From: a virus
IMG/VR virus record: IMGVR_UViG_3300025137_000006
Span: 1-36,383 of that record
Direction: 5' to 3' (one strand)
Length of the DNA stretch: 36,383 bases
In this document: positions 13,370 to 34,226 of the stretch, piece after piece
Numbering within the stretch: the first letter of the stretch is position 1
How the letters are laid out: each line of letters starts with the position of its first letter
The notes under the pieces: model-generated
What the model saw: the letters and a program-made list of their open reading frames with translations, nothing else
Database searches by the model: none
What the model was told of the DNA's origin: nothing
Translations under genes and position numbers: made by a program

Positions 13370-13370
13370 A

Positions 13371-20735: not shown

Positions 20736-23700
20736 ATGACAACATACGAAGTTAGTACAGATAATGGCTATCGTTTTCAATTTGATGCAGGAAGAACTCC
20801 TACGGAAGAAGACGCAATGGAGGCATTGGAAGTCAATGTAAACAATGCTACTACAAATTTATCTCTAGGTTATAAAATGACCCAGGAACAAAATACATTA
20901 GCGTTCCAGGGAAAATATGATAAAAGAGCAGAGAAAAAGAAATTTTACACTCAAAATATAAGTGATTATTTAACAATTCCTCAAAGCGATTTTGTTTATG
21001 ATAAGGGTGCTCCAGCGGGACTCCGCAATAAAATGTCCTACTTGCGTTCTTTAGGATCTAAAGCTTGGTATTTATCTGAAAAATTTGGAAAAGAAAATGT
21101 GCGACCAGTTTCTATAAAAGGAACAGAAGCACTTGTATACAAAGATCCATCAGATGAAAAATGGCGGCTTTTTGATTCTATGACCGTAGAACTAGCTGAC
21201 TTTACAGAAATACAATCAGAAATTATTCCAATAGGTGCTAGTATTGTTGCTGGGTTAAAAGCTTTTGCCGCAGGAACTTTAGTAAGCACTCCAGTTGGTG
21301 GTGTAGTAGCTGGAGCATCAGCTTCAACCGCAACGGAATTTGCAGTAGGAAGCAGTCAAGATGCTATTGCAAGAAAAGCTTTAGGAATCCCTGAAGACAT
21401 TGGCGATGGATTTATTAAAAGAAGGAGACAAGAGGCATATTTAAATATGGGTCTTGAATTGGCTATCCCCGCTATTGGCAAAATAGGTTTTGCTAGTCGC
21501 ATAGGAAGAGCTAACGCTGACTTAGCGGTTAGAGAAATTAATGCTGTTATGAAACAATTGGACATGGATCCAATTCGTATGCAACAGGGCGGTATAAGTT
21601 CTATAAACAGATTAGCAGATATATCGGGTAAGTTTCCTAATTCTTTGGGTGCTCAATGGAACGCAGAAATTAGAACCGCAATTAGCGGAAAGATTCAATC
21701 TTTGTTTGGAGAAGAAATGAGTGAGGAAACTGTGGATTCTATCCTTAGCAGATCCATCCTTAACATGAGTGAACAATTTGATGCAGATGAAAAATTATTA
21801 AGAGATGCGTTAGATCAATTGATAATTAAAAAGGCTGGCGTAGAAACAGCTACCGAAACCGCAGTAACAAAAGAAGCTCAGAAAAAAGCAAAGAAAGTAT
21901 TTCAAAAAGAATTAAACCGACGGACAAGGAACATTGCGGGAAGAGATGTAGATCCAGAAGCATTAAGTATGCAATACAAACGTCAAATGATGGATCATTA
22001 TGTTAACACTGAGGCTCGCGTGTCTAATATGTATGACGATGCTTATAATTTGCTCAGTAATGTCACTCTTCCAAATCAAAAAATTGCAGGTATTTTAAAC
22101 AAACAAAAAAATCGTGCTATTCTGGATGCGGACGATGAAGTTATTGCTACGCTTGCTCCTACTGGAAGGACTGCTTCTGGTAGGGCTGTAAACACTCTGG
22201 ATGATGTTTTAACTGAACCAATGAGTTTCCGTCAGTTAAACGAATTAATACAGCAAACACGGCAAAAAGCTGGATACAACGCTACTGACGTTAATCCTAA
22301 TCAATCGGTTTATAGGCAACTAAGTAAAGATTTAGAGGCTCAACGGGATGCTGTTTTAGAACTTGGCACAACTCCTGTTGCTGGAAAAGAAATGTTTGAA
22401 AATGCCAATACCGCATTCAAAATGGAAATTCAACCGCTTCGGGAAAATGTAATTAAAAAACATATTACTGCTCCAAAAGGTCAAAACTATGGCGAAGCAA
22501 TTAAGTTAGCCAAAGCTGGACAACCCTTTGAGGAGGCTTTGCCCAAGTTAGAAATGTTTACAATCGGCGGCATGGAGTTAATACAAGATGCTTTAAGCAC
22601 TCCAGCAAAAGCCAGAGCGTTTTTAAGGGCTTCGGGCGACACTTTGGAGAACCGTAAACTGTTGCGTGAAATGTGGCTTGTTGATAAAGGCATTGTTGGC
22701 GGTCAAGATATACCAGTATCAGCTTTAAAGTTTACCAAGGATGATAGGGCAATGGTATCTACACTGTGGGAAATGAATGTTGACGGTATAAACCAACGCT
22801 GGAAAGTTCTACAAGATATTGCCACATTTGCCAAAACAGAAAAAGGTTTTGTTGAAGGTCTTACAAGACAGACGGTTGATGAAATAATGTCGGAATCCAC
22901 AAGCAAAACAACTAAAGAACTGACGGAATTGGGCATAGAAGAAACCCGCCTTACGGATGAGTTAGCGGATTTGCTTAATGATAATTTCTTTAAACTTATG
23001 GGTAAAGGTCAAGTGCCCCTGCCAGAAGGATCGGCAACAATAGAAACCTTTGCGGATTTTATAATTAATCTAAAAAACCCTACGGATTTTGATAACATAT
23101 TGCAAAGATTCATTGACAAGGGAGACGGATCTGACCATGCCCTACGGCTTGCAGTCCTTCAATCAATGACAAACAAAGCAGGTCGTAAAACCGATTTTGC
23201 TCAACTAGATAGTAATTTCGGGCAACTTTGGAACCCCCAGTTGATGGAGAGGGAACTTGGAAGAAACGAAACTAATCTTCGGAAACTTTTGGGAGACGAC
23301 AAATACGAAAATTTTGTTGGACTCAACAGGGGTATGGATCGTACGTCCGCTACTTTACAAACAAAGCGTGACCCGCTTGCCCCTAGATTCAATGTAAGCG
23401 GAGGTGGTAGACTTTCTGCATTTTTCCCTAATGTCTACGGTTTTACCGCTGACAGAGTGACTAAACTTTTGATTTGGAATCAAATTAAAAACCCAATTGA
23501 TTGGAAAAAAATGGTGTCCGCCGAGGATTTTGATAGGCTCAATGAGGCTACATTAAGAAGTTTCTTCTTGGTCGGAAACTTTGCTGATTTGGTTAATGAA
23601 GCGGACATTGACCCCGATTTCCGTCTATGGCTAGACGAGACTTATGGATTGCTTCAAGATGCCGCCATGAAGAAGGGCGTTCAAATGGGCACTGAAGAAT

Positions 23701-23792
23701 ATGCACCCCCCGTGATGCAGAACTTCAACGGTGAACTTCCACCACCCCCGCCTCCCAGCTACAGCAGAAGTCCCAACATGGGAATGCAATAA
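20736..23792 (+). CDS. Large internal/ejection protein candidate, 1018 residues
   Basis: This is the last gene of the rightward virion block. It begins T-Y-E-V-S-T-D-N-G-Y-R-F-Q-F-D, a short beta start that I know from large tail or ejection proteins, followed by T-P-T-E-E-D-A. Residues about 163-205 are hydrophobic and small-residue-rich (G-A-S-I-V-A-G-L-K-A-F-A-A-G-T-L-V and G-G-V-V-A-G-A-S-A), possibly membrane-inserting. The remainder is long charged helix (E-A-Q-K-K-A-K-K-V-F near 385), ending in a Pro-rich tail (P-P-P-P-P-P). I see no lytic transglycosylase motif. A role in genome delivery is inferred from size and position. Confidence 0.68.
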   Translation: MTTYEVSTDNGYRFQFDAGRTPTEEDAMEALEVNVNNATTNLSLGYKMTQEQNTLAFQGKYDKRAEKKKFYTQNISDYLTIPQSDFVYDKGAPAGLRNKMSYLRSLGSKAWYLSEKFGKENVRPVSIKGTEALVYKDPSDEKWRLFDSMTVELADFTEIQSEIIPIGASIVAGLKAFAAGTLVSTPVGGVVAGASASTATEFAVGSSQDAIARKALGIPEDIGDGFIKRRRQEAYLNMGLELAIPAIGKIGFASRIGRANADLAVREINAVMKQLDMDPIRMQQGGISSINRLADISGKFPNSLGAQWNAEIRTAISGKIQSLFGEEMSEETVDSILSRSILNMSEQFDADEKLLRDALDQLIIKKAGVETATETAVTKEAQKKAKKVFQKELNRRTRNIAGRDVDPEALSMQYKRQMMDHYVNTEARVSNMYDDAYNLLSNVTLPNQKIAGILNKQKNRAILDADDEVIATLAPTGRTASGRAVNTLDDVLTEPMSFRQLNELIQQTRQKAGYNATDVNPNQSVYRQLSKDLEAQRDAVLELGTTPVAGKEMFENANTAFKMEIQPLRENVIKKHITAPKGQNYGEAIKLAKAGQPFEEALPKLEMFTIGGMELIQDALSTPAKARAFLRASGDTLENRKLLREMWLVDKGIVGGQDIPVSALKFTKDDRAMVSTLWEMNVDGINQRWKVLQDIATFAKTEKGFVEGLTRQTVDEIMSESTSKTTKELTELGIEETRLTDELADLLNDNFFKLMGKGQVPLPEGSATIETFADFIINLKNPTDFDNILQRFIDKGDGSDHALRLAVLQSMTNKAGRKTDFAQLDSNFGQLWNPQLMERELGRNETNLRKLLGDDKYENFVGLNRGMDRTSATLQTKRDPLAPRFNVSGGGRLSAFFPNVYGFTADRVTKLLIWNQIKNPIDWKKMVSAEDFDRLNEATLRSFFLVGNFADLVNEADIDPDFRLWLDETYGLLQDAAMKKGVQMGTEEYAPPVMQNFNGELPPPPPPSYSRSPNMGMQ

Positions 23793-23820
23793 AAAACCCC
23801 ACCCCCGAAAGGGGCAGGGC
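23791..23820 (-). terminator. Terminator of the leftward helicase unit
   Basis: Read on the minus strand: CCC, a 2x2 internal loop, CCCC, loop TTTC, GGGG, GGG, then TTTTTT (23796-23791). The U-tract is on the minus side only, so it ends leftward transcription just where it would run into the rightward virion genes. Confidence 0.75.
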
Positions 23821-23967
23821 TTCCAAGGGTTTAAACGGAGAGAAAAGAAACGAACTCTCTGCTGGTAGTTGCCTATACAGCTTCCCTTTAGAATAATTTT
23901 AGGTTGTCAAGAATTTTTCATTAGTCAAGTTTTTGCGAACAAAATCCAAAAAGGGGGTAGCCACTTT

Positions 23968-25299
23968 TTAAGCAAACCTCCCTATGCAGTGGTAGAATTT
24001 AAACATACATCCAATGTCCCGTTCGCCCTCCCTGTTCTTGGCTAACTTATAAATTATTTCGGTGTAAGCACCCTTGCCGTCTATCCTGCGAGAAAGTTCT
24101 GGTTCGCCTTGATTGGATGGATACATCAGTAAAACAACGTCAGCGTCGTTCTCAATGTCCCCAGAATCCTTTAGATCGTAGAGTTGTAGACCTCCCTCCC
24201 GCTTAGCTCCTTCTCGGTTCACTTGAGCCAGTAGTAATACGCCTACATTTAGTTCTAGGGCTAGTTGTTTGATCCTGTGAGATATATTAGCAATGCCTTC
24301 ATTCTTCCCCATCGTCTTGGAGTTATACGGAATTAGTTGCAGATAATCAACGACCAGTAGCTTAACGCCCATCTTCTTCACCATGTTCCGAGCTTGACCC
24401 GCTAAGTCCTCAGCACCGCGAACAAAGTGCGAAGTATAGAAGGGTAGACCCTCAAGCTCCTCGTTGGCTTTCTTAAGTTTCTCAGCCCTCTCAGCACCGA
24501 TTGCACTATCGTTGACCGTCTTATAGTTTATGCCAGACAAAGTTTGTCCCATACGTTGCGTAAGCTGTTTCTTGGGCATCTCAAATGAAAAATAGGCTAC
24601 CCCCTTTCCCTGTTTCTTCGCGGCGTTCAGTGCTATGTTCAAAGCCAAGGCGGACTTACCGCAGGAAGTGGGGGCGGCGATTACTACGACTTCTCCCGCC
24701 GCAATACCATTGCTACCAAGAAGGACATCAAGTCTACCTATGTCAGTAGTCACGACATCCCTAACGAAGTCACCTCGGACAATAGCATCCAGCTCCTCGT
24801 TAATCAGGGAAGTTGCGGAGGACAAGTCCAAGTCATTAACATCTACCCGTATATCAGCGTTCAAGTCCACCTCCAGCTCTGACTTGATCTCGTGAGCGGG
24901 GGTAGCCTCTTCTTCGGCTTTCTCCCTAGCTATCCTGCAAGACCTAATAACATTCCGAAGCCGTGACTTCTCCGCTACCGTGTTTGCACACATTTTAAAA
25001 TCTATGGGGCTTGTGTGCTTGTCCATTAAAGTCATCAATCCAATGACTCCTCCCAGCAACTCAGTGCCCCCAACTGATTTTATCTGCTCTAGAACGGTTA
25101 CCTCGTTAAGCGGTTCATCTTTGTCGCAAATTGATTTAATGGAGCCAAATACCAATCGGCATCTGGATAAGTAAAAATCATCGGACGCAACCGTCTGACT
25201 GATTTGGTCATAATACTCAGCACCCTCATTTAGAATGGTTCCAATTACTTTTTCTTCGGCTTCCGCATTGTGCGGATCGTCCCTTGTTTGGCTTATCAT
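23968..25299 (-). CDS. dnaB: Replicative DNA helicase, DnaB-like
   Basis: A 443-residue hexameric helicase. The N-terminal helical domain (N-A-E-A-E-E-K-V-I-G-T-I-L at 11-23) is the usual DnaB N-domain start. The RecA-like motor has Walker A A-P-T-S-C-G-K-S (about 207-214), Walker B V-V-D-Y-L-Q-L-I (about 313-320), a Q-V-N-R-E sensor (H4 region) and the D-S-G-D-I-E-N-D-A-D element with a following arginine. The frame is open to 25407, but a terminator hairpin lies at 25328-25366. The ATG at 25299, directly before I-S-Q-T-R-D-D-P-H-N-A-E, is therefore the better start. No phage primase or polymerase is present, so it should recruit host replication proteins. Confidence 0.95.
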   Translation of the reverse strand: MISQTRDDPHNAEAEEKVIGTILNEGAEYYDQISQTVASDDFYLSRCRLVFGSIKSICDKDEPLNEVTVLEQIKSVGGTELLGGVIGLMTLMDKHTSPIDFKMCANTVAEKSRLRNVIRSCRIAREKAEEEATPAHEIKSELEVDLNADIRVDVNDLDLSSATSLINEELDAIVRGDFVRDVVTTDIGRLDVLLGSNGIAAGEVVVIAAPTSCGKSALALNIALNAAKKQGKGVAYFSFEMPKKQLTQRMGQTLSGINYKTVNDSAIGAERAEKLKKANEELEGLPFYTSHFVRGAEDLAGQARNMVKKMGVKLLVVDYLQLIPYNSKTMGKNEGIANISHRIKQLALELNVGVLLLAQVNREGAKREGGLQLYDLKDSGDIENDADVVLLMYPSNQGEPELSRRIDGKGAYTEIIYKLAKNREGERDIGCMFKFYHCIGRFA

Positions 25300-25327
25300 A
25301 TTTCTTTTTTGGTTATCGTTATTAGAC

Positions 25328-25366
25328 AAAAAAGCCCCCGCCTCAACAAAAGTCAAGGCAGGGGTT
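25328..25366 (-). terminator. Terminator between the recombination operon and the helicase
   Basis: On the minus strand, CCCC-T(bulge)-GCCTTGAC pairs with GTTGAGGC-GGGG around a TTTT loop (two G-T pairs), followed by C and TTTTTT (25333-25328). It separates the gene ending at 25376 from the helicase start at 25299. This argues that the helicase has its own promoter or depends on read-through. Confidence 0.8.
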
Positions 25367-25375
25367 CCTGTATTG

Positions 25376-25726
25376 TTACTTCCCTCTTTCAAGCATACCC
25401 AGAGCAATTAAAGAATACCCGATGAGGTCGCGGAATATATCTTTTTCTTGGTCGCCGATTGACTCAACCGCTAGGGTTCCATCGGCACACAAGGCTTTGG
25501 CTCGCTGAAATTTATCTTGCATGCGAATGCAGATTCCCGTCAGGGGGGCTACCCCGAATTCCACCGACTGATCAAAGTTGGCAAACGGATTGTTGCAAGA
25601 GTTACCGCCAGTATAATCAGCGTTCTTCTTTGCGGTTAGGGCAAGTATCGCGTCAACTTCCTGTTGTCGGAACTCGCTCCACCATTGTTTGTCAAAGCTT
25701 TTGATCTCTAATGAATCGGGTTTCAT
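25376..25726 (-). CDS. DUF1599-like (nucleotide-modification-associated) protein
   Basis: A 116-residue protein with K-K-N-A-D-Y-T-G (33-40), N-P-F-A-N-F (46-51), then a G-I-C-I-R-M-Q-D-K-F-Q-R block (near 64-75), E-S-I-G-D-Q-E-K-D-I (near 88) and R-D-L-I-G-Y-S-L-I-A-L-G-M-L. This is the pattern of DUF1599-type proteins, which are all-helical and related to MazG/dUTPase-like nucleotide enzymes, with no defined reaction. Its ATG is two bases downstream of the previous gene's stop, so it belongs to the recombination operon and is the last gene before a terminator. It may handle nucleotides in infection (inference). Confidence 0.75.
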   Translation of the reverse strand: MKPDSLEIKSFDKQWWSEFRQQEVDAILALTAKKNADYTGGNSCNNPFANFDQSVEFGVAPLTGICIRMQDKFQRAKALCADGTLAVESIGDQEKDIFRDLIGYSLIALGMLERGK

Positions 25727-25728
25727 TC

Positions 25729-26010
25729 TTAGAACGGTGCTTCGTCGTTAGTAGGAACTGAAGGCTCACGGGGAACAGAAATGTTCGCAGTTGCGTTTCC
25801 TTGGAGTTCCTCAGGTTGACGATCTTCTGGTGCGTAGTCACAAGCAAGACTTAGCATCGGTTGACCGTTCTTAGTTGAACGCTTCCAACCCTTAATGTAG
25901 TAGAGTCCAGCTTTGTCCACCGTGATCTTGCCGTTATAATCGGGATGGTTTTCCTTTTCCTTGCGGTCGTTAATGAAAAGACCACCAGAGTTCATGTATG
26001 TATTTGACAT
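25729..26010 (-). CDS. Putative single-strand-DNA-binding-like protein with SSB-type tail
   Basis: A 93-residue protein starting at the ATG at 26010 (M-S-N-T-Y-M-N-S-G-G). The open frame extends to 26133, but that part overlaps the ERF gene and looks like a shadow. The core (G-K-I-T-V-D-K-A-G-L-Y-Y-I-K-G-W-K-R) is short and beta-rich. After a flexible linker the protein ends N-D-E-A-P-F, close to the acidic, aromatic-capped SSB tail (D-D-D-I-P-F) that recruits partner proteins. The core is too diverged to call an OB fold by eye. The tail and the neighbour (ERF annealing protein, 19 bases upstream) suggest ssDNA binding. Confidence 0.6.
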   Translation of the reverse strand: MSNTYMNSGGLFINDRKEKENHPDYNGKITVDKAGLYYIKGWKRSTKNGQPMLSLACDYAPEDRQPEELQGNATANISVPREPSVPTNDEAPF

Positions 26011-26029
26011 ATTAGTTCGGTTTTTGTTG

Positions 26030-26497
26030 TTAGAACGACTGCACACTTTGTGCGGTTGTTTTCTTGGGTGAGTCCTTGCCGTGCGTGTTAGTTGCATCAG
26101 CGTCCTTAGTATCGTCAATGGCGAATAGACCATTCAACGCATACTTGCGAGCGTAGGAACTAGCGGAGCCAGTAATCTGAGCTTCGTCCATTCCTTTTTT
26201 AGATTCGGCTTCACGGGCAAATGCCTGTGCGGTAATAATCTGTTCGTTGTCACTATCAGCAATTGAGGCTGAGGATTTAACATAGACACGACCAGCAATT
26301 TCAACGATCTCGTCGTTCACCACTAGCGAGCAGTCCCAAACATTAAGCAAGGGTTTGACTGCATTAAGTATATCTTCAGCACTTCGGTAATTGTATCCAC
26401 CGAACTTATTGGTTTGCCCCTTAGGAGCTTTCAAAGAGGATTGTATCCACTGTAACTTTTGGCGTATGTTATTAGCCTTTTTACTTTCTTCGCTCAT
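26030..26497 (-). CDS. erf: ERF-family single-strand annealing protein
   Basis: A 155-residue recombination protein. The ERF signature is clear: K-L-Q-W-I-Q at 14-19, F-G-G-Y-N-Y-R-S-A-E-D-I at 32-43, A-V-K-P-L-L at 46-51. The C-terminal core R-E-A-E-S-K-K-G-M-D-E-A-Q-I-T-G-S-A-S-S and then Y-A-R-K-Y-A-L-N-G-L-F follows at about 95-125. ERF proteins form rings that anneal complementary single strands, here likely with the exonuclease-type protein at 27389-28165 and the SSB-like protein. It overlaps the endonuclease VII-like gene by 17 bases, so they are co-translated. Confidence 0.92.
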   Translation of the reverse strand: MSEESKKANNIRQKLQWIQSSLKAPKGQTNKFGGYNYRSAEDILNAVKPLLNVWDCSLVVNDEIVEIAGRVYVKSSASIADSDNEQIITAQAFAREAESKKGMDEAQITGSASSYARKYALNGLFAIDDTKDADATNTHGKDSPKKTTAQSVQSF

Positions 26498-26936
26498 ATT
26501 TTTCTTTCGTTAGTTTGCGGAATAGTTCCGCCCTTTGTTTTTGATTAGAACACTTATCAAGTTCGTCCTGAGTAGCATTCATGTCCTTGAGAGTTTGGGT
26601 TTGCTCGGCACTTGTCAACTTATTTTTAAATTTATTTCTCAGTTGATTAAGACCAGCGTAATGAAGTATTCCCTCATCCCTTTGTTCAAGGTAAGCGGAG
26701 ATTGCTTCAAGAGTAACGGGAAGAAACTCTTTGTCCCCCTTGCACATTCCTAAATAAAAATTTTCTATTTTTCCAATCAGGCTATTAGCTTGTCGGGATA
26801 TTACGCCCCGAACCATTCCAGTCTGATGGTCGTGGTCAACAACCCAATCGTCACCCTTGGTGCACAAGATGGGGCAACAAGTTGGCTTGTTCTTTTCTCG
26901 GTAGGCTTTAATCTTTCCCTGCGGTAAGTATGTCAT
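26481..26936 (-). CDS. Endonuclease VII-like junction resolvase (partial zinc site)
   Basis: A 151-residue relative of T4 endonuclease VII, which cuts Holliday junctions and branched DNA before packaging. Visible: C20-C21-P-I-L-C25, then V-D34-H-D36-H-Q-T-G-M-V-R-G (33-44) with the His/Asp centre, and N51. The second zinc pair of the family (C-x-x-C after R-G) is replaced by S47 and A50, so zinc binding would differ from T4. The last 60 residues are helical and charged. The start ATGA overlaps the HTH gene's stop by four bases. Confidence 0.85.
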   Translation of the reverse strand: MTYLPQGKIKAYREKNKPTCCPILCTKGDDWVVDHDHQTGMVRGVISRQANSLIGKIENFYLGMCKGDKEFLPVTLEAISAYLEQRDEGILHYAGLNQLRNKFKNKLTSAEQTQTLKDMNATQDELDKCSNQKQRAELFRKLTKEKYERRK

Positions 26937-27196
26937 ACTTCAGCCTCCTTAAGTTTTTTGTTTCGTTTATAATAAGATGTCCTAGAAATGCCGACTTCCT
27001 TGCAGGCGTTTTCAATGGTATAGCCTTTTGACCTCAAAAAGTTTACCTCGTCCACCATGTCCTCCCTGTTTTCGCGGAAGTGATCTAAAAATTCCTCCTT
27101 CTCAAGACTTTTTTCCATCAAAAGATGTTGTGCGTGTTCTTGAGCGATGCGATCCTCAGCCCATGCCAAAAATCCTCCTAGTCCCTTAAATGACAT
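26933..27196 (-). CDS. Small HTH DNA-binding protein
   Basis: An 87-residue protein. The start is set at the ATG at 27196 because AAGGAGG lies 5 bases upstream; the frame also allows 27229. It overlaps the upstream gene by 11 bases. The first half is a charged helix (F-L-A-W-A-E-D-R-I-A-Q-E-H). The C-terminal 35 residues (Y-T-I-E-N-A-C-K-E-V-G-I-S-R-T-S-Y-Y-K-R) are a helix-turn-helix of the resolvase/transposase-subunit type, with the recognition helix at I-S-R-T-S-Y-Y-K. It may be a transcription regulator or a partner of the recombination proteins. It is one of only two obvious HTH proteins here, so it is a candidate reader of the repeated DNA motifs in this half. Confidence 0.72.
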   Translation of the reverse strand: MSFKGLGGFLAWAEDRIAQEHAQHLLMEKSLEKEEFLDHFRENREDMVDEVNFLRSKGYTIENACKEVGISRTSYYKRNKKLKEAEV

Positions 27197-27389
27197 TGGG
27201 AACCTCCTTAACTGAGAGAATTTCACCACCCCCGCCTCGTTTGAATACTACGGCTTTTGAATCTTTCTTGGGCATCGTTGAAAGCATTAGCTTCAAGGCA
27301 TCCTTTTCACTGTTTGACCACTTAGTTGTGGCTCCTACATATCCTTCTGGCATATCGTTACGTTTATAAGTTATTAGATATTTGTTCAT
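27186..27389 (-). CDS. Small protein, unknown
   Basis: A 67-residue protein whose ATG overlaps the stop of the nuclease gene upstream by one base. It starts M-N-K-Y-L-I-T-Y-K-R-N-D and has a W-S-N-S-E-K-D-A-L-K-L-M segment and a V-V-F-K-R-G-G-G-G-E-I-L-S-V end. The beta-helix-beta look is common for small phage accessory proteins. No known motif; operon position suggests a role in recombination or early takeover. Confidence 0.6.
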   Translation of the reverse strand: MNKYLITYKRNDMPEGYVGATTKWSNSEKDALKLMLSTMPKKDSKAVVFKRGGGGEILSVKEVPNVI

Positions 27390-28165
27390 TATTTTATGAC
27401 TGGCTTCATTCGTTTTGACCAGTATATTTTACTAGCCAGTTTTGCGTTTTTCATACCCCACTTTACCTCCGCTTCGCTCCAAGTTCTGTGATGATGTTCC
27501 CTCGTATCGCAGTCAATGATAACGCTGATGCACTTGGGTAAATAGTCCAGCTTATGATGCTTCATTAGCATCCATGACTCAATAGCGAGTTGCTCGCAAT
27601 CCTTAGCGTATGTCTTTGCTTTTCCTTTTGTATTGGTTCGGCATTTGTAATCCGCTAAAAACAGGCTACCCCCCTCGTCGTGTCCAATGAAGTCAACCGA
27701 TCCAGCGATCTTAAAAAAATTGTTAGATACCACTTTTTCACAAGCTAATGGCTTGATGTTGTTTTCCAGCACCCATTCGTAAAAGGGGGTAGCCCATTCA
27801 TCGTAATCATAGTTATGTGGGCACTCCCTTTTTTGGTCATATATCAATGAGTTAATCATATCCTCAATGGTTTCATGCACCGCCGTTCCGAATTCCGAGC
27901 TTGGTATCTGTTCTTCTGTAGTTGGATGAGTTCTAGTCCCGTAGGTAAGCCTCTCAATCTCCTGCCATGAGTTCCCCGCCCTCTGCATGGTGAGTTCATA
28001 CATCATTCGGGGCTTATAAATAGAGTCCAAGAATTGATCTTTAACAATTCCCAAGACAGTAGTAACTGACGGGTAAACTTTTGCCCCCTTTTGTTTTGCC
28101 TGATGGGGGGTAGCCACTTCTGGCTCAAAGGTTGGTTCTTCTTTGCAGTTATAAAAATGAGACAT
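27389..28165 (-). CDS. PD-(D/E)XK nuclease, RecB/Cas4-like exonuclease
   Basis: A 258-residue nuclease. Motif residues in order: E143 (A-C-E-K-V-V), G155-S-V-D158, L-A-D172-Y-K174, and a Q192-x3-E segment. This is the RecB/lambda-exonuclease order of the PD-(D/E)XK superfamily. An N-terminal H98-E-T-I helix agrees with RecB-like members. Together with the ERF protein it would form an exonuclease/annealase pair, resecting ends so that annealing can occur. It overlaps its upstream neighbour by one base (TAATG). It carries three copies of the GGCTACCCC motif, in two frames. Confidence 0.85.
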   Translation of the reverse strand: MSHFYNCKEEPTFEPEVATPHQAKQKGAKVYPSVTTVLGIVKDQFLDSIYKPRMMYELTMQRAGNSWQEIERLTYGTRTHPTTEEQIPSSEFGTAVHETIEDMINSLIYDQKRECPHNYDYDEWATPFYEWVLENNIKPLACEKVVSNNFFKIAGSVDFIGHDEGGSLFLADYKCRTNTKGKAKTYAKDCEQLAIESWMLMKHHKLDYLPKCISVIIDCDTREHHHRTWSEAEVKWGMKNAKLASKIYWSKRMKPVIK

Positions 28166-28698
28166 TATTTTTTAATCTTTCTATGTTGTAGGGTTAGTAG
28201 GTCGTTGGTCTTTATCATTGAAATTAAGTCCCTAGTATTTTTGCGGTTATACACTTTGTAAAGAGCTTCCCTTGCGGATTGCACGTAGTCCTCCTTGTCG
28301 CACAACATATCCGACAGTTCGGCTAAGTCCCGCCTCCGCACCATCACGTAGTGATCCACCTGCTCAAACGCTATAAAGTCTTGCTCCCCATATATCCACC
28401 CGTGATCCCCGCAAGTGTTTTTAAACTCTATCCAAATGGTGGACGGGCTTTTAGCTCCGTGTCGGCTAACGCTTTTCATCGCTTTAACGTCAATAGTCCC
28501 CGCACTGCATACCCAATCAATGTGCTTGTATTGTTGGGGTAGGGTAGCCTCTTTTACATCCTCATAGATGCCTTTTAATAAATCGCCGAATTCAGCCTCC
28601 CGAGCAAAGCCCTCTTTCCAGCACGGAGCACCTACCCACTTTCTGTATGTGGATAGGTCAGCCCTGTTGTAGCCCGATTCAAAATCCACTTCGGGCAT
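28165..28698 (-). CDS. Second PD-(D/E)XK-type nuclease candidate
   Basis: A 177-residue protein. G-T-I-D70-V-K and, 20 residues on, I-W-I-E91-F-K93-N fit the D...E-x-K core of PD-(D/E)XK enzymes, preceded by a helix with E48/E50. G-E-Q-D-F-I-A-F-E and V-M-V-R-R-R-D-L follow as further strands. It could be a resolvase-like or restriction-like nuclease. Start: GGAGGAA lies upstream within the neighbouring gene and the ATG overlaps that gene's stop (TAATG). The nuclease fold call is from residue pattern only. Confidence 0.6.
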   Translation of the reverse strand: MPEVDFESGYNRADLSTYRKWVGAPCWKEGFAREAEFGDLLKGIYEDVKEATLPQQYKHIDWVCSAGTIDVKAMKSVSRHGAKSPSTIWIEFKNTCGDHGWIYGEQDFIAFEQVDHYVMVRRRDLAELSDMLCDKEDYVQSAREALYKVYNRKNTRDLISMIKTNDLLTLQHRKIKK

Positions 28699-29066
28699 TA
28701 TAGTTCCTCCATATCCATTAAGTAGTTAATGGCTTCAGAGAGAGTAGTGATTTCATCTATGTGATAGGGGTAAGTGACAAGCAAGGTAGAGTTCCCCCAA
28801 ATCTCAACGCCTTCATCTTTGCCGTCAACATCCTGTGCCCAGTCAAGGCTGAGACGCATCTTTGCAAAATAATCAAACAGCTCGGAATGTGATCTAGGGG
28901 CTACCCCCGTTTTTATGCGTAGGGAATATTGATTGCCTTCGCAAAGGTCAATAGCGTAGCAATCCGTAAAAGACCCCCAAGGGGTAAGCTTTAATACAAT
29001 CTCATCGTCCGCTATCCCGTCCTTCGGAACATCGGGGTAAGTGTATATTTTAATGTTCTTTTCCAT
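28698..29066 (-). CDS. Small acidic protein, unknown
   Basis: A 122-residue protein preceded by AAAGGA. It starts M-E-K-N-I-K-I-Y-T-Y-P-D-V-P-K-D-G and has a beta-rich middle (V-L-K-L-T-P-W-G-S-F and Y-S-L-R-I-K-T-G-V-A-P). An acidic helical end follows (E-A-I-N-Y-L-M-D-M-E-E-L). I do not recognise a family. The operon around it carries recombination and small accessory genes. Confidence 0.65.
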   Translation of the reverse strand: MEKNIKIYTYPDVPKDGIADDEIVLKLTPWGSFTDCYAIDLCEGNQYSLRIKTGVAPRSHSELFDYFAKMRLSLDWAQDVDGKDEGVEIWGNSTLLVTYPYHIDEITTLSEAINYLMDMEEL

Positions 29067-29080
29067 TTTTTTCCTTTGTT

Positions 29081-29452
29081 TTAGTTATTATGTTTTCGGG
29101 CTGGTTCGCCTTCAAGGACAACGCAACCGAATTTGATCAACGCTGTCAAGTCTTTTTTACTAATGACGGGTTCCGTGGATTCACCCTCCCAGTTTGATCC
29201 TATAACTAGACCATTGCCCACCAAGGGTTGCTCGTAGCCATCAAAGTTGAAAGCACCCTGCACCCCATCCCTACAAAGTCCCATGTCGTCAACGTAAATG
29301 CAATCGCCGTCACCGATTCGCACAACATCAAAAAAGTCACAACCGATTTCGTCGGCTATGAATTGTATGTCAATGCCCCCATCGCTTTCCTTGGTCGGGG
29401 CATCTAGTTCTTCTATCTTTTGCGTTAAGACGTTAATTTTGTATATCTTCAT
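29081..29452 (-). CDS. DUF3846-like small protein
   Basis: A 123-residue acidic protein. The core Q-F-I-A-D-E-I-G-C-D-F-F-D-V-V-R-I-G, then D-C-I-Y-V-D-D-M-G-L-C-R-D-G, a N-F-D-G-Y spacer and L-V-G-N-G-L-V-I-G-S-N fits the DUF3846 plan. Such proteins occur widely in phages and plasmids and have no settled function. Its start overlaps the upstream gene by 20 bases. The match is from memory of the pattern and is moderate. Confidence 0.6.
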   Translation of the reverse strand: MKIYKINVLTQKIEELDAPTKESDGGIDIQFIADEIGCDFFDVVRIGDGDCIYVDDMGLCRDGVQGAFNFDGYEQPLVGNGLVIGSNWEGESTEPVISKKDLTALIKFGCVVLEGEPARKHNN

Positions 29453-29648
29453 TTTTTTCGTTCTCCTTTTGTGAAACTAGGTCTTGTATCGCCCATTCAA
29501 TGTTATCCCAAGTAATGCCAAAATTAGCATCGTGGTTCGCTTCTATCGTAAACAAAACATCGTTGGCTTCCTCCTCCGTGAGTTTCACCTCCATTTGTTT
29601 CGCTGTGTCCAGCACGTCCTCCGTGCACCATGTTATTTGTATTTCCAT
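29433..29648 (-). CDS. Small acidic protein, unknown
   Basis: A 71-residue acidic protein, the first gene of the long leftward recombination operon. It contains W-C-T-E-D-V-L-D-T-A and helix E-E-E-A-N-D-V-L-F-T-I-E-A-N-H-D-A-N-F-G, then I-T-W-D-N-I-E-W-A-I. The T-W-D-x-I element is common in short early phage proteins. No function known. A GCTA-loop hairpin and the CCTTAAGG operator cluster lie directly upstream. Confidence 0.65.
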   Translation of the reverse strand: MEIQITWCTEDVLDTAKQMEVKLTEEEANDVLFTIEANHDANFGITWDNIEWAIQDLVSQKENEKNEDIQN

Positions 29649-29677
29649 TTTATTTTAGTTTTATTTTTTTATGCTTG

Positions 29678-29697
29678 ACAAGGGGTAGCCCCCTTGT
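29678..29697. promoter_or_regulatory. Perfect 8-bp inverted repeat around one GGGGTAGCC copy
   Basis: ACAAGGGG-TAGC-CCCCTTGT is a perfect hairpin or dyad site, 30 bases before the ATG at 29648. No U-tract follows on either strand, so it is not a terminator. It overlaps TTGTCA on the minus strand (29681-29676), and TAAAAT follows after 18 bases. A start from that promoter would fall at the ATG itself, so an operator or leader hairpin is more likely. Confidence 0.6.
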
Positions 29698-29700
29698 ATT

Positions 29701-29790
29701 CCTTAAGGAATTGGTTCGTTAAGGTTCTAAGTTTTTATAAAAAAAGTATGTTCCTTAAGGTCGGTATCCTTAAGGTCGGTATCCTTAAGG
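29701..29790. promoter_or_regulatory. CCTTAAGG operator-like cluster 1
   Basis: CCTTAAGG palindromes at 29701-29708, 29753-29760, 29768-29775 and 29783-29790, plus a half site GTTAAGG near 29719. The last three are spaced exactly 15 bases by TCGGTAT, making a tandem array upstream of the recombination operon. On the minus strand TATAAA (29740-29735) follows the 29753 copy after about 13 bases. This suggests regulated promotion, with the palindrome as an activator or repressor site. Confidence 0.65.
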
Positions 29791-30093
29791 TTCATACTGT
29801 AAGAGGGCTTCCTTTATTATTTCGTTGTCCTCCTCGCTTAATGCGTCAACGGGTATCCGTATGGTTTCAACGCCATCCGTGCCCACGTAGTAGCCCAAGC
29901 GGTCAACTTGAAAGTCCCCTATGCCGCACTGCACCCATCGCTCCGTCACGGATTGATTGCCGCACTCAGAAGTGCACTCGCAGTTTTCAAACTCATAAGT
30001 TACCGTTCCTTCAATATTAAAAAACCTATCTGGTCTTAATTCAAGGTCGTCCAAGTAGAATTCCTCGCTGACTGTTCTGTTTCTTTTATTCAT
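29785..30093 (-). CDS. Small acidic protein with Cys motif, unknown
   Basis: A 102-residue protein. A beta-rich middle carries C-E-C-T-S-E-C-G (38-45) and a later C56 (W-V-Q-C-G-I-G-D), so a small zinc site is possible. The acidic C-terminus ends L-S-E-E-D-N-E-I-I-K-E-A-L-L. Its TAA stop lies within the last CCTTAAGG palindrome of cluster 1. It is three bases downstream of the preceding gene. Family unknown. Confidence 0.6.
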   Translation of the reverse strand: MNKRNRTVSEEFYLDDLELRPDRFFNIEGTVTYEFENCECTSECGNQSVTERWVQCGIGDFQVDRLGYYVGTDGVETIRIPVDALSEEDNEIIKEALLQYEP

Positions 30094-30096
30094 CGT

Positions 30097-30387
30097 CTAT
30101 TGCTGGTCGTTTGGTTCTATGGCTTCCTGTAAGTATTCAATCAAACACTCAAGGTTTATGATTGCTTGCGGTTCCTTTGCAAATACCCTCTCTCGCTTGT
30201 TTAAGCGTTCGTAAGCCCTTTGCATTTGTTCATCAGTCGGCTCTGGTATATACTCCAAAGCCTTCAAAAGCACCCCGCACCTTTTCGTGCGTTCTGCTTG
30301 GTATTTCTTGTATTCTTTCAATGTTCTTTTGTAGTCCATGTTCTGCATCTTGCACAAAGATCCATGCCCTGCAAGTTTTTTCTTCAT
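30097..30387 (-). CDS. Small charged helical protein, unknown
   Basis: A 96-residue protein from the ATG at 30387; the frame begins at a TTG (30414), and ATGs at 30348 and 30339 are also possible. The sequence is a charged helix (Y-K-R-T-L-K-E-Y-K-K-Y-Q-A-E-R-T-K-R) with E-Q-M-Q-R-A-Y-E-R-L-N-K-R later, ending in an acidic Q-E-A-I-E-P-N. No motif. Two copies of GGCTACCCC lie in the 100 bases upstream. Confidence 0.5.
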   Translation of the reverse strand: MKKKLAGHGSLCKMQNMDYKRTLKEYKKYQAERTKRCGVLLKALEYIPEPTDEQMQRAYERLNKRERVFAKEPQAIINLECLIEYLQEAIEPNDQQ

Positions 30388-30481
30388 AAATATATGAATA
30401 ACAACATAATGCAAAAGTGGCTACCCCCGCAACCAAACTGCGGATACAAAACTGGCTACCCCCTCCCTTCAATTCGGGCAC

Positions 30482-30509
30482 AAAAAAGGACACCCAAAAC
30501 TGGATGCCC
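30482..30509 (-). terminator. Terminator after the GGCT-like gene
   Basis: On the minus strand GGGCATCC and GGGTGTCC pair over eight positions (two G-U pairs) around AGTTTT, followed by TTTTTT (30487-30482). It begins 9 bases after the stop at 30518 and closes the GAT-II/GGCT transcription unit. Confidence 0.78.
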
Positions 30510-30517
30510 TCTCGTGT

Positions 30518-30994
30518 TTACTTAAGCACGTAAGTCCTGTCTCTCTCGTGCCCTCGGTAAGTGTCCCAAAGCTCCGCGTCATAGCCAAGCTCTCGGTTTT
30601 GGATGAAGTAGACCCAAGCATAAGTCGTGCTCCAGTCGTGCATTGATACGGGGATCACTTGGCGTTTGTAGAAGTCAGGGTTGCCCTCTAGGCAGTCCAA
30701 CTGCTGGAAGGTTTCGGGGGTTACGTCGTAAACCTCCAAGGTTACTTGCTCGCCTTCGCCCTCCATGTCGTGCAAATAGGGTAGCCCCTCAACCTCAAGT
30801 GGGTAGGCACTTTTTGTTTTGCCTGTCCCTATGAACTCGGAAGTCTCTAGCAAGCGGTGGTTTGAGTAGCCAGCCTTCAGGGTTCCATAAACGGCTACCC
30901 TGCGTTTCCTGTCTTCGGGGAAGCAGTTGGCTTTGGAATAAAAGATGCCGTCCCGTCTATGCCATTCTCCGAACTTGGAGACCCTACCCGTCAA
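30518..30994 (-). CDS. Gamma-glutamylcyclotransferase-like (AIG2/YtfP) domain, downstream half of an interrupted fusion
   Basis: Residues 33-140 carry the GGCT/AIG2 signature: V-A-V-Y-G-T-L-K-A-G-Y-S-N (33-45), a G-E-Q-V-T-L-E-V-Y-D-V strand (81-91) and L-D-C-L-E-G (99-104). Known members cleave gamma-glutamyl amides to 5-oxoproline. The first ~30 residues (S-K-F-G-E-W-H-R-R-D-G-I-F-Y-S) are not GGCT; they resemble the end of the GAT-II-like phage protein encoded just upstream. That frame is open and in phase back to the TGA at 31045-31043, and the only start between TGA and the GGCT core is a TTG (30994) without a ribosome-binding site. So this is either made by read-through or is the remnant of a 290-residue fusion. 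A terminator follows. Confidence 0.82.
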   Translation of the reverse strand: MTGRVSKFGEWHRRDGIFYSKANCFPEDRKRRVAVYGTLKAGYSNHRLLETSEFIGTGKTKSAYPLEVEGLPYLHDMEGEGEQVTLEVYDVTPETFQQLDCLEGNPDFYKRQVIPVSMHDWSTTYAWVYFIQNRELGYDAELWDTYRGHERDRTYVLK

Positions 30995-31042
30995 AGTATC
31001 TATAAGAGCAAATCGGGTTTCGGTTAGCTCTAAGAATTTCTT

Positions 31043-31399
31043 TCATTGGTTCGGCTGTATTCTTGGCAATACATTGTCAGCGATATCCGCAACGTCGCTC
31101 TGTGTGTCTGATCCGTAGCCGTCAACCGTGCCGTTACTATATATAACTGTGCGGTTGTCCACGTTGAATGGATGAACGTTGTTCATGTCAACGGCTCCAA
31201 CGGTCGCAAATCTAAAGTGAGCAACGATTGGTCGGTTCGTGTTTAGAATCCTGTTGACACTTGTATAGTCAAGGGTTCTGCGAGTCTTCCCGCTGTCTAA
31301 GTAGGTTACCCCGAAGCCGTGCGGGTTAATTACCTTTGCCCGCTCTATTATGTTTCGGGGAATTCTTTTGCCTTCTGGTTTATGTATGATTATACACAT
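31043..31399 (-). CDS. Class II glutamine amidotransferase-like domain (stops early)
   Basis: A 118-residue N-terminal-nucleophile domain. C2 would be the nucleophile after Met removal (M-C-I-I-I-H-K). The expected later motifs follow: N-P-H-G-F-G-V (25-31), H-F-R-F-A-T-V-G (61-68), N-V-H-P-F (74-78) and S-N89-G90-T, the oxyanion pair. Class II domains release ammonia from glutamine for an amide-forming partner; the amidoligase-like gene is next door. AAGGAAA precedes the ATG. The product is short for the family and ends at TGA (31045-31043). The next codon continues in phase into sequence (E-T-R-F-A-L-I-D, then G-R-V-S-K-F-G-E-W) that looks like its missing end. Confidence 0.8.
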   Translation of the reverse strand: MCIIIHKPEGKRIPRNIIERAKVINPHGFGVTYLDSGKTRRTLDYTSVNRILNTNRPIVAHFRFATVGAVDMNNVHPFNVDNRTVIYSNGTVDGYGSDTQSDVADIADNVLPRIQPNQ

Positions 31400-31427
31400 T
31401 TTGTTTCCTTTCGTTTTGTTTGTGTTG

Positions 31428-31730
31428 TTATGCTAAGTCAGTTATATGTTGCCAAGCGTCCTCGTCAATAGCTTCGTCCCCGAGGTAAGGCTCCCAGTTC
31501 TTCTGGCTGTATCTTTTCTTAGCTCCGAATACATCGGCAATTCCGTTTAAGCGTTCCCGTGTTGTTGGCGTATTCCATCCAGCCAAAGTCATCAGTAAGG
31601 CTCCGTCTTCTATCTTGGCAATCTTGTTACCGTGAAGGAAAACCTCGCCGTTGATCGTTGCGGTGTTGCCCTTGTTTACATCTTGGCGGGCGAACAGTGC
31701 ATTTGCTATTTCTTTAGTAATCTTTCGCAT
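31428..31730 (-). CDS. Conserved small phage protein, unknown
   Basis: A 100-residue protein starting M-R-K-I-T-K-E-I-A-N-A-L-F-A-R-Q-D, with N-T-A-T-I-N-G-E-V-F-L-H-G-N-K-I-A-K and G-W-N-T-P-T-T-R-E-R-L-N-G. I know this plan (a short helix, a G-x-x-x-L-H-G-N strand and a T-R-E-R-L-N end) from many phages as an unassigned early protein. It lies 28 bases upstream of the GAT-II-like gene in the same direction, so it shares that unit. Confidence 0.72.
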   Translation of the reverse strand: MRKITKEIANALFARQDVNKGNTATINGEVFLHGNKIAKIEDGALLMTLAGWNTPTTRERLNGIADVFGAKKRYSQKNWEPYLGDEAIDEDAWQHITDLA

Positions 31731-32049
31731 TTTGTATCTTTCTTTTTTGGTTATGTGACAGGCAGTTATTCCGCTTATCTGTTATCAATAAAAACTATCT
31801 CTTTATATGTGTCAAATGTTTTTTGCATTTTTTATTTCATTAATAGATACAGTGCAGTGACTTGCAAAAGTGGCTACCCCCATTTCTCGTTCGGCTCAAA
31901 AAGTGGCTACCCCCTAGACAGCCAGCACGCCAGCCATCCCCGAAAAGTGGCTACCCCCCTAGAATCCACAGAAAGCCCCCTGGAAGCCCCGCGGATCATT
32001 CCCCCCTAGCCCTACCCCTAGAAACGGCTACCCCCTAGCAACAGGGCAC
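31731..32049. repeat. Non-coding region with iteron-like direct repeats
   Basis: No gene on either strand. Four same-orientation copies of (A)AAAGTGGCTACCCCC or its shorter form begin at about 31866, 31900, 31944 and 32022, with a fifth partial at 32081 beyond the hairpin. Several are followed by CTAG, giving repeated CCCCTAG (about 31912, 31957, 32002, 32014, 32032). The left part (31731-31860) is A+T-rich. Direct repeats beside an A+T-rich stretch fit an iteron-type origin, but also a cluster of protein sites. Confidence 0.7.
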
Positions 32050-32072
32050 AAAAAAACCCCGCCGAAGCGGGG
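32050..32072 (-). terminator. Terminator after the amidoligase gene
   Basis: On the minus strand CCCCGC-TTCG-GCGGGG, six perfect pairs with a stable UUCG loop, then TTTTTTT (32056-32050). It lies 20 bases past the amidoligase stop. Confidence 0.92.
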
Positions 32073-32092
32073 CTTTCGTTAACGGCTACCCG

Positions 32093-32971
32093 TCACGCCG
32101 TGCGTAAAACGGATTGCAATACGGGGGCATCATTCCCGAATCCGAAGTGATGCATGCGTTCTATTACATGTTGAATAACGGGGCGGAATTCGGCGTGCAC
32201 TGGTTTGATTGTGCCGTCAATGTTCGCCGTTGCTACCTTTAGAGCAATAAGCACGTTGTGCATTGGATTTTGATATGATTCCGTGCGGGGAATCTTTAAT
32301 CTACATCTTTCGGTCGTAGCTTGGCATAAAGCAATCCAACAAACGATTTTGCCGAAGTCTAGACTGCCCTGATGCTGGCGGAATTCAATAGTGCCGTGCT
32401 TGGCAAACGCCGTCAAGTTGACATTACGGTAGCGAAACTCTCCCCCCGTTCTAACCCGCCCCGAATCTTGGCAAATCGCCGTGTTTAACATAGAACGCAT
32501 TGAGCGGGAATAGGGCGAATCGCCCCGCCGTGATGGGGCAAGCATCTTATCAATGGCTTGCTCGCTCTTAACGGCGTGATTTACTACATACTGCAAACGC
32601 TTAGGCGTGTAGCCTTTAGCGTCACAATGCACATGAAGCCCGCATGTTTTCTTTACCTTTACGCCGTTGCGTTCTAGCACTTCCAACACCTTGAACAGTT
32701 GCTTGAATAGTTGAGCGGGTTGCAATGGCGGGCTAACATATTCACGCCCTACATAACCCCGTGGGGCGTTGCTATTGAGTGAGCAGTCAGTAATGCCTTT
32801 CCAGTGACGGCGGGTTGATGTATTCCAGTTTTCCCGTTGATAGGGCACGACCGCATTCAACTCTCTGTTGATTAGACTCTCTCTATCTTCGGGTATGTAG
32901 CATTCAATCTCTAGCCCGATCGTCTTAGGCTTCATTGTGAACGCTATTTCTTGTGCTGTTTCGTTATTCAT
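32093..32971 (-). CDS. Amidoligase-family enzyme (glutamine synthetase-like COOH-NH2 ligase)
   Basis: A 292-residue protein with the ordered motifs of the amidoligase_2 family: G-L-E-I-E (19-23), D-C-S-L (62-65), E77-Y-V-S-P (77-81), C-G-L-H-V-H-C-D (110-117), R-Y-R-N-V-N-L (180-186) and G-T-I-E-F-R-Q-H-Q-G (193-202). The acidic and His residues match metal/ATP ligands of the glutamine synthetase fold. The family is predicted to join a carboxyl group to an amine. Comparative genomics by Aravind and colleagues linked it in phages to class II amidotransferase and GGCT/AIG2 domains; both are the next genes in this direction except for one small ORF. The substrate is unknown. It is transcribed leftward from the 32.97-33.45 kb control region. 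Confidence 0.9.
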   Translation of the reverse strand: MNNETAQEIAFTMKPKTIGLEIECYIPEDRESLINRELNAVVPYQRENWNTSTRRHWKGITDCSLNSNAPRGYVGREYVSPPLQPAQLFKQLFKVLEVLERNGVKVKKTCGLHVHCDAKGYTPKRLQYVVNHAVKSEQAIDKMLAPSRRGDSPYSRSMRSMLNTAICQDSGRVRTGGEFRYRNVNLTAFAKHGTIEFRQHQGSLDFGKIVCWIALCQATTERCRLKIPRTESYQNPMHNVLIALKVATANIDGTIKPVHAEFRPVIQHVIERMHHFGFGNDAPVLQSVLRTA

Positions 32972-33276
32972 TTTCTTTGCTTTCGTTTAGTTATGGCTTC
33001 GGCGTTGTGCCTAGGCTCGCTCTCAATATAGGGTAGCCAGTTATTGAGTCAACTACATAAGCCCCCTTTTCTTCCCCCCGTAATGGGTTGCCCTTTCCCG
33101 CTAAAATAGCCCCGTCAATGGGGTAGCCAGTTTTTGCCCATAGGGTAGCCAGTTATAGGGGGCGGGGGGGGTTGAGATCATTTTTTTTTTTACAATGCTT
33201 ATATATTAAGTAGGTCTCAAAAAAAAGTGCTACTCATAGGGCGGTTTCCCCACAAAATAAACCTACCAACGTGTCC

Positions 33277-33380
33277 CTGTATACCTTAAGGTAGCCTAGT
33301 CATGGTTACATATACCATTTTATTGACTTTTTTACTTCCTTAGGGACTTCCTTAAGGCTTGATATCCTTAAGGTATACAG
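33277..33380. promoter_or_regulatory. CCTTAAGG operator-like cluster 2 with mirrored arms
   Basis: CCTTAAGG at 33284-33291, 33350-33357 and 33366-33373, plus the degenerate CCTTAGGG at 33338. The outer copies are arranged as mirror images: CTGTATACCTTAAGG (33277-33291) and CCTTAAGGTATACAG (33366-33380). The extended 15-mer therefore faces outward toward both gene blocks, as expected for a protein controlling divergent promoters. Confidence 0.7.
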
Positions 33381-33422
33381 TTAAAAATCGGTTGTCAAGC
33401 AAATGTGTATGTTTTTTTTAAC

Positions 33423-33450
33423 TTGACAAATGTATTAATTGTGCTAATGC
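33423..33450 (+). promoter_or_regulatory. Candidate rightward promoter of the packaging genes
   Basis: TTGACA (33423-33428) is a perfect sigma-70 -35 box. Sixteen bases later TGCTAATGC resembles an extended -10 with a poor hexamer (TAATGC). A start would lie near 33457, right at the GTG of the terS frame. This would favour the ATG at 33488 as the real start or a leaderless message. Confidence 0.4.
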
Positions 33451-33457
33451 TGGGTTT

Positions 33458-34039
33458 GTGATACCAGAATCAGACAAGGAATTGCTTATGAAGCAAATTT
33501 CCGAGCAGATACAAAAGGTGTCCTCCGACAAGGAGAGCATCCAGATTAAAAGCCTAAGTCGCCATGCCCCTGAAAAGGTGGCAGAAATACTTTATCTATT
33601 TAGTATGGGTAGTTCGCAGACTAAGATTGTTAAGAAATATGGATTTTCTAGAGCAACAGTCATTAGTGTATTAACTGATTACGCTGACGCTTTGGGTAAA
33701 TTCCGCGAATTGAGCGGTAGGCTGTCCGCTAAGAACTACATGAGCCTAAGTAGCCTTGAGGAAGATTTAATTGAAAAAGTCCGTGAACGAATGGACGAAG
33801 ACCCCGAAATGCAGGTTAGCTTTCGGGATTTAAAGGAACTGTCCATAGCTAAAGCTAATGCCAATAGAGAGGCTATGACGGCTAGGGGAGAAGCTACCAA
33901 TATTACCGAAGGCAGAAAAGTCTACACCAAAGAGGATTATGACGATATTGTTAAATCCGCCAAAGATCGTATTAAAAAAGCAAAAGTAATTAATGCTGAA
34001 ATTGTAACGCAGGAGGACAATGGACGAGGAGATTCTTGA
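33458..34039 (+). CDS. terS: Terminase small subunit (HTH DNA-binding)
   Basis: A 193-residue protein from the GTG at 33458. An in-frame ATG at 33488 has AAGGA 7 bases upstream and is the better supported start (183 residues). A helix-turn-helix is visible at about 53-74 (Q-T-K-I-V-K-K-Y-G-F-S-R-A-T-V-I-S-V-L), followed by long helices (L-S-S-L-E-E-D-L-I-E-K-V-R-E-R-M) and an acidic/basic tail. Small terminase subunits bind the packaging site through such an N-terminal HTH and oligomerise by helices. Position as the first rightward gene and near terL agrees. An ordinary regulator with the same HTH cannot be excluded. Confidence 0.72.
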   Translation: MIPESDKELLMKQISEQIQKVSSDKESIQIKSLSRHAPEKVAEILYLFSMGSSQTKIVKKYGFSRATVISVLTDYADALGKFRELSGRLSAKNYMSLSSLEEDLIEKVRERMDEDPEMQVSFRDLKELSIAKANANREAMTARGEATNITEGRKVYTKEDYDDIVKSAKDRIKKAKVINAEIVTQEDNGRGDS

Positions 34040-34226
34040 TAAGCTAAAAGAGATACTTGGGGAACATTATCCTAATTACTGCATTATTGTGCTGGATGAA
34101 GAAGGAGAAGTCCAATCCGAATACACAACAGTTTCAGTAGCTAGAATGCTTATTAGAGAAGCTTCGCTAGATTTTAGAGATGACAACGTAGAAGTTATAT
34201 GGGATATAGACGATACCGATGATTAA
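34020..34226 (+). CDS. Small acidic protein, unknown
   Basis: A 68-residue, highly acidic protein with an AGGAGG ribosome-binding site (34011-34016), overlapping terS by 20 bases and the sulfotransferase-like gene by 8. It starts M-D-E-E-I-L-D-K-L-K-E-I-L-G-E-H-Y, has a Y-C-I-I-V-L-D-E-E-G-E strand pair and ends in D-I-D-D-T-D-D. The tight overlaps link it to both neighbours. Function unknown. Confidence 0.65.
   Translation: MDEEILDKLKEILGEHYPNYCIIVLDEEGEVQSEYTTVSVARMLIREASLDFRDDNVEVIWDIDDTDD

Follow-up and report, generated by a model that had tools for sequence, protein, structure and literature searches.

A dispersed asymmetric DNA element in the leftward early operon of an environmental phage and its relatives, and its linkage to an amidoligase cassette

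Why should one short sequence recur, both between and within genes, throughout a single operon of a phage and nowhere else in its genome? This question is raised by the IMG/VR virus record IMGVR_UViG_3300025137_000006, whose 36,383 bases were analysed as a whole (the window; its phage, W for short, is referred to as the window phage) and in which the motif GGCTACCCC, or its core GGCTACCC, is scattered over the early region. The structural genes of the window are read rightward, the replication and other early genes leftward from about 33.0 to 24.0 kb, and the terminase gene is split by the record ends. The early operon starts with an amidoligase gene and runs on to DnaB, and helicase, SSB, ERF and nuclease genes (Pfam, PHROGs) are the neighbours of the sites. 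A preliminary description had offered binding sites for a phage protein, replication sites, a recombination hot spot or a tiny mobile repeat as candidates. Among these, sites for a DNA-binding protein appear to explain the observations best, and comparison of the sequences makes it very probable that the scattered copies of the motif are bound by a protein.

Enrichment, extent and orientation of the element

In the window, GGCTACCCC is present in 16 exact copies (10 on the plus and 6 on the minus strand) from 23954 to 33128, where shuffles predict 0.08, and GGCTACCC in 22 copies, the last at 33143-33150, where shuffles yielded a mean of 0.39 and a maximum of 2. The earlier count of 16 9-mers and six further 8-mers, set against a chance level of about 0.3, is thus borne out. 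The confinement described before holds as well: all copies lie within 23954-33150 and neither sequence occurs in the other 27 kb. A k-mer enrichment check placed GGCTACCC first among all 8-mers of the window by frequency. When the codons were shuffled synonymously with the protein sequences kept fixed (5000 shuffles), the 10 core sites of the early genes compared with a mean of 0.30 and a maximum of 4 (p<0.0002), while the late genes had none, with 0.21 expected. Two other frequent 9-mers, ATTATATCC and ATTAAAACC, were rejected as DNA motifs, as they mostly belong to the coding repeat of a 1987-aa gene; this open reading frame (13371-19334) contains a 15-bp coding repeat, matches Decapeptide and PMG in Pfam and is the source of the other frequent k-mers. 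Rfam returned no match at the gathering threshold.

Reading of the opposite strand revealed a longer asymmetric element, GGGT-AG-CC-NN-TTTT (GGGTAGCC-NN-TTTT). The 107 unique sites of this AG type, from twelve motif-bearing contigs, have GGGTAGCC by definition and mostly an extra G ahead of it, and after two free bases they continue into a T run (T at +3 in 90%, at +4 in 93%, at +5 in 73% and at +6 in 77%). Phage C75C1 and metagenome relatives spell the core GGGT-AC-CC (GGGTACCC); the 80 sites of these AC-type contigs have the same T run, the figure for which is inflated because the sites were oriented by their T-richer side. A third form, GGGT-SA-CC, is found in L238 and L241 (21 sites, core GGGTSACCC), where the T run is one base nearer, which keeps the spacing between GGGT and TTTT the same. 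We read these forms as one asymmetric 14-bp element, GGGTNNCCNNTTTT, with the alleles AG, AC and SA at positions 5-6, the window phage having AG. A reading of GGGTACCC as a palindromic dimer was dropped because of the asymmetry that the T run revealed. The extension AAAAGTGGCTACCCCC, previously noted between genes, was seen again, but is merely one form of the wider GGGTAGCC-NN-TTTT, and the T run is partly present inside genes too, with T at +3 in nine and at +4 in seven of the ten in-gene sites of the window.

Between genes, the element follows transcription. Over ten contigs, 41 intergenic AG-type sites are oriented with early transcription, with the T run downstream, and 8 against it; for window sites between co-directional genes the ratio is 7 to 1. 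Such an arrangement is also what would be expected of protein-independent terminators or attenuators, in which the G+C-rich core and the T run end or weaken early transcription through RNA structure. Consistent with this, the early block contains 18 terminator-like patterns where 9.6 are expected, and in C75C1 and L240 (in L237 by sequence) two inverted sites after the amidoligase gene form a hairpin followed by a T run. However, most sites of the window and of G012 show no unusual hairpin, and RNA structure alone is for this reason unlikely; moreover, the AG allele breaks the self-complementarity of GGGTACCC and is nevertheless kept, and conserved sites within genes occur in antisense as well. 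We therefore regard terminators as an improbable explanation.

Selection on the DNA sequence and the origin of the alleles

The sites of the window are given below by coordinates and strand, together with their counterparts in relatives (contig labels).

23955..23962 (-): GGCTACCC site where the early and late operons converge, with A/T runs on both sides; GGGTACCC at the equivalent place, past the end of the helicase gene, in L004, L008, L009 and L012
24595..24602 (+): in the DnaB helicase gene, GGG GTA GCC, read as G-V-A; same codons in L004-L008 and L136
24900..24907 (-): in the DnaB helicase gene, GCT ACC CCC, read as A-T-P; same codons in L003-L006 only
25547..25554 (+): in gene 25376-25726, GVAP; GGGTACCC at the same codons in L005, L007, L008, L012 and G005
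27664..27671 (+): in the PD-(D/E)XK nuclease gene, GGS; AG form in L136, GGGTACCC (EGT) in L004, L012 and G005
27787..27794 (-): in the PD-(D/E)XK nuclease gene, WATPFYEW; WGTPFYDW with GGGTACCC in L004 and L007, AG form in L136
28108..28115 (-): in the PD-(D/E)XK nuclease gene, VATPHQ; VGTPHQ with GGGTACCC in L004, L007, L012 and G005, AG form in L136
28542..28549 (-): in gene 28165-28698; only in the window phage and L003
28899..28906 (+): in gene 28698-29066, GVAP; inverted site, GLPL, in L004, and RVPS in L007
29683..29690 (-): intergenic, upstream of gene 29433-29648
30419-30426 and 30454-30461 (+): intergenic pair, 80-115 bp upstream of the 30097-30339 gene; same pair in L004
30779..30786 (-): in the gamma-glutamyl cyclotransferase-like (GGCT) gene, GLPY
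30893..30900 (+): in the GGCT gene; counterpart in L136
31872..32091 (+): array of five intergenic sites after the amidoligase gene (31872, 31905, 31949, 32026, 32084), each oriented with early transcription when read as GGGTAGCC-NN-TTTT
33031..33150 (-): three leader sites upstream of the amidoligase gene (33031, 33121, 33143)

Codon alignments place in-gene sites of relatives at identical codons, where another allele and, with it, another amino acid is found. Accordingly, VATPHQ and WATPFYEW of the window phage stand against VGTPHQ and WGTPFYDW in the relatives listed, and GVAP against GVPP in L005, L007 and L008. At a single position three forms are met, namely GGG GTA GCC CCT (GVAP) in the window, GGG CTA CCC CTT (GLPL, the inverted site) in L004 and AGG GTA CCC TCT (RVPS) in L007. 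The excess over synonymous shuffles and the protein-changing allele switches at fixed codons strongly support the view that selection acts on the DNA and that the protein gave way to the DNA site. The earlier proposal of selection on DNA or RNA instead of protein is upheld, as regards DNA, by these two lines of evidence, and in close relatives not only the motif but also many of its positions are conserved. In the case of the site at 24595, conservation may be partly owed to the helicase protein (GKGVA).

The number of copies varies among near relatives (17 in L003, 7+4 in L004 and 3 in L006, on contigs of unequal length), as might be expected if a tiny mobile repeat had spread by insertion, which had been one of the candidates. 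In contrast, motif-less homologues align gap-free at the site positions, with no indel, so that the sites must have arisen by substitution; alleles switch by single bases at fixed codons, and the flanks of different sites are unrelated except for the T run. Spread of a mobile repeat is accordingly very improbable.

The allele itself may have been shaped by restriction. Avoidance of restriction-like 4-mers is strong and lineage-specific: CCGG, GCGC, GGCC and TCGA are absent from the window, with 61-86 of each expected. Likewise, C75C1 is without GATC, and G007 without CATG, ACGT and CCGG. The tetramer GTAC is missing from 23341-34695, with 27 copies before and 2 after this interval; by synonymous shuffles, the early genes have 0 against 23.5 expected and the late genes 25 against 63.8. 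The early regions of G012 and L137 likewise lack it. GTAC lies inside GGGTACCC but not inside GGGTAGCC, and restriction at GTAC may therefore have driven the allele switch. As a separate hypothesis, it might be proposed that GTAC avoidance pushed GGGTACCC to GGGTAGCC in the window and G012 lineages. Most AC-type phages are not depleted of GTAC (L012, G005, L155, L240, L243), the exceptions being C75C1, which is mildly depleted, and L237 and L008, in which it is low. L136 and L154, in which the AG allele is found together with GTAC, could be reconciled with this only by a later release from the pressure. We rejected the view that restriction avoidance in general accounts fully for the alleles, given the AG allele of L136 and L154 and the SA allele of L238 without GTAC depletion.

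Distribution and the amidoligase cassette

The presence of the motif tracks a cassette of amidoligase, class II glutamine amidotransferase-like (GATase) and GGCT genes. A scan with the general pattern GGGTNNCCNNTT revealed 34 contigs in which it exceeds expectation 16- to 163-fold; these either are close relatives of the window phage or, where they extend into the region, carry the amidoligase-GATase-GGCT cassette. In 75 contigs with the nuclease gene and without the cassette, the pattern is no more frequent than by chance (10 found, 19.6 expected). The window has the following cassette genes and, next to them, a gene of a further family.

32093..32971 (-): amidoligase gene, phrog_2443 (E 4.5e-36), first gene of the leftward early operon, tracking the motif
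31043..31399 (-): GATase part of the cassette, in frame with 30518-30994 across a TGA
30518..30994 (-): GGCT part of the cassette, phrog_2520 (E 1.4e-23)
30097..30339 (-): 80-aa protein family, candidate regulator, found only in motif-bearing contigs

The cassette resides in two phage backbones, one window-like and one of the G012 lineage (terminase 50% identical), and the motif is present in both. Arrays of sites bracket the amidoligase gene, in its leader and just after it, in the contigs showing both sides, and in the G012 lineage they flank the amidoligase and GGCT genes. No motif is common to the distant amidoligase phages (L244 onward); in one of them, L274, 11 copies of TTGCAAACC lie on one strand of 11081-17526, often paired about 15-17 bp apart. 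Six matches in a pattern scan of genome contigs for a host had contexts unlike the phage arrays and were taken as chance.

This distribution also bears on a role in replication. The location of sites among helicase, SSB, ERF and nuclease genes, and their occurrence in both orientations inside genes, would suit a replication initiator, a primosome or recombination (origin-like or Chi-like sites), with the operon linkage reflecting the place where replication starts. Yet relatives with the same replication genes and no cassette have no sites, the arrays of the G012 lineage surround amidoligase and GGCT genes, and intergenic orientation follows transcription, so that we give this possibility slightly less weight than the terminators. 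The general recombination hot spot of the preliminary description is likewise disfavoured, since the sites are confined to one operon, transcription-oriented between genes and tied to one cassette.

Several other features of these regions were recorded. The GATase and GGCT parts form a single open frame (30518-31399, minus strand) that is broken by a TGA 119 codons in and stays open for 174 codons beyond it. All relatives examined have TGG (Trp) at exactly this codon; L003 shares this TGA, and in the G012/L137 lineage another codon of the same gene is TGA. The TGA represents either readthrough or a nonsense change, with relatives holding the intact form. Palindromes of the type CCTTAAGG occur in two intergenic regions only (29701, 29753, 29768 and 29783; 33284, 33350 and 33366) and are possibly operators of a second regulator. 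Elsewhere, the window encodes two sulfotransferase-like proteins and an aspartyl/asparaginyl hydroxylase-like protein (12551-13369, 34219-34884, 34877-35506) and a probable virion protein with YadA head domain repeats (11583-12512).

A possible regulatory role and related systems

If the element is bound by a protein, a sequence-specific regulator, probably encoded by the phage, would occupy the copies along the leftward early operon from amidoligase to DnaB. At the leader copies it would affect initiation, the copies between and within genes would be roadblocks to elongating RNA polymerase, and the downstream T run would help release; the early genes would in this way be silenced, or their transcription switched off stepwise. 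We give about an even chance to this mechanism as stated, that is, to operators which silence or pace the leftward early operon.

Several observations weigh against it. The three leader sites of the window are reversed relative to transcription, as is the site at the convergent ends, and the in-gene sites of the window are unoriented (5 sense, 5 antisense), while stoperators have one orientation. Among the window proteins scanned, Pfam and PHROGs recognised neither a repressor nor an integrase, some small open reading frames being outside the scan. G005 has no cassette and kept its GGGTACCC sites; since it shares about 95% identity with the cassette-bearing L012 over their common region, the cassette was likely lost recently. 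Finally, the contigs are not independent, many having been found via the motif itself or as close relatives.

Two helix-turn-helix (HTH) matches in the window concern a terminase-adjacent protein and a 98-aa protein which is also present in motif-less relatives. The family nearest to being motif-specific is that of the 30097-30339 protein, present in 12 motif-bearing contigs and in 0 of 141 others, with a site upstream of its gene in the contigs examined and, in the corresponding position of C75C1, a weakly similar homologue (22% identity). Its structure is predicted, at moderate confidence, as three helices (predicted local distance difference test, pLDDT, 76), and it had no match in Pfam, PDB sequences or folds of solved structures; we consider it a possible, though rather doubtful, binder. 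No gene family separates the motif-bearing from the motif-less contigs without exception, as might be expected if the same operator role were played by a host factor exploited by the phages. Against a host factor stand the differing alleles of related phages, the many relatives without sites and the linkage to a phage cassette, and we rate it as low as the terminators. It might be speculated that the cassette moves between phage backbones with its own dispersed DNA address, GGGTNNCCNNTTTT, which was bred into adjacent replication genes by point mutation, altering their proteins, and whose central dinucleotide was rewritten from AC to AG or SA under pressures such as GTAC restriction, amounting to a set of operators that lack any recognisable repressor, in phages without recognised lysogeny genes. 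This combined account is tentative, being less probable than the silencing mechanism taken by itself.

The closest parallel is found in cluster A mycobacteriophages (L5 clade, repressor Rep), where more than 20 short asymmetric stoperators per genome lie in promoter regions and short intergenic spaces, are oriented with transcription and have motif positions that vary among related phages (PMC6550527, PMC9283540). According to the model proposed there, the repressor prevents initiation when bound to operators and stops elongation when bound to stoperators, and a site loses its effect on reversal (PMC9283540, PMC6550527). Similarly, the window phage has 22 core sites, the consensus (107 sites) is asymmetric and the site motif varies among related phages (AC, AG, SA). 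Orientation gives a mixed picture, with intergenic sites following transcription 41:8 over ten contigs, in-gene sites of the window evenly divided (5:5) and its leader sites reversed. The sequence is different, as is the tie to an amidoligase cassette, and no Rep-like HTH immunity repressor was recognised by Pfam or PHROGs in the proteins scanned. Integrase or parABS had no match in the window proteins scanned and none in the C75C1 annotation. Because the search for a repressor and for lysogeny genes recognised none, the element was not classed with the cluster A stoperator systems; we do not claim membership of the stoperator family, and consider as the best explanation that the element works like dispersed operators.

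In phage P1, 22 asymmetric 17-bp operators of C1 are dispersed over the genome, with the consensus ATTGCTCTAATAAATTT (PMC8546580). The number of dispersed asymmetric sites is the same here, but the consensus differs and no repressor was recognised among the scanned proteins, while P1 is a temperate plasmid-prophage with a known repressor and with operators that are not confined to one operon. The CIB repeats of Streptomyces phage phiC31 are repeated repressor-binding sites upstream of early genes; they are likened here by description and are inverted-repeat sites of a temperate phage. If the sites described here are operators, stoperator-like control would extend to an environmental phage group without a recognised repressor or integrase, and the three naturally occurring alleles, of which two are found at matching positions, could lead to the binding protein. 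Protein sequence is also seen to bend to keep a DNA site, and the possible rewriting of a regulatory site throughout an operon by restriction avoidance offers a testable case.

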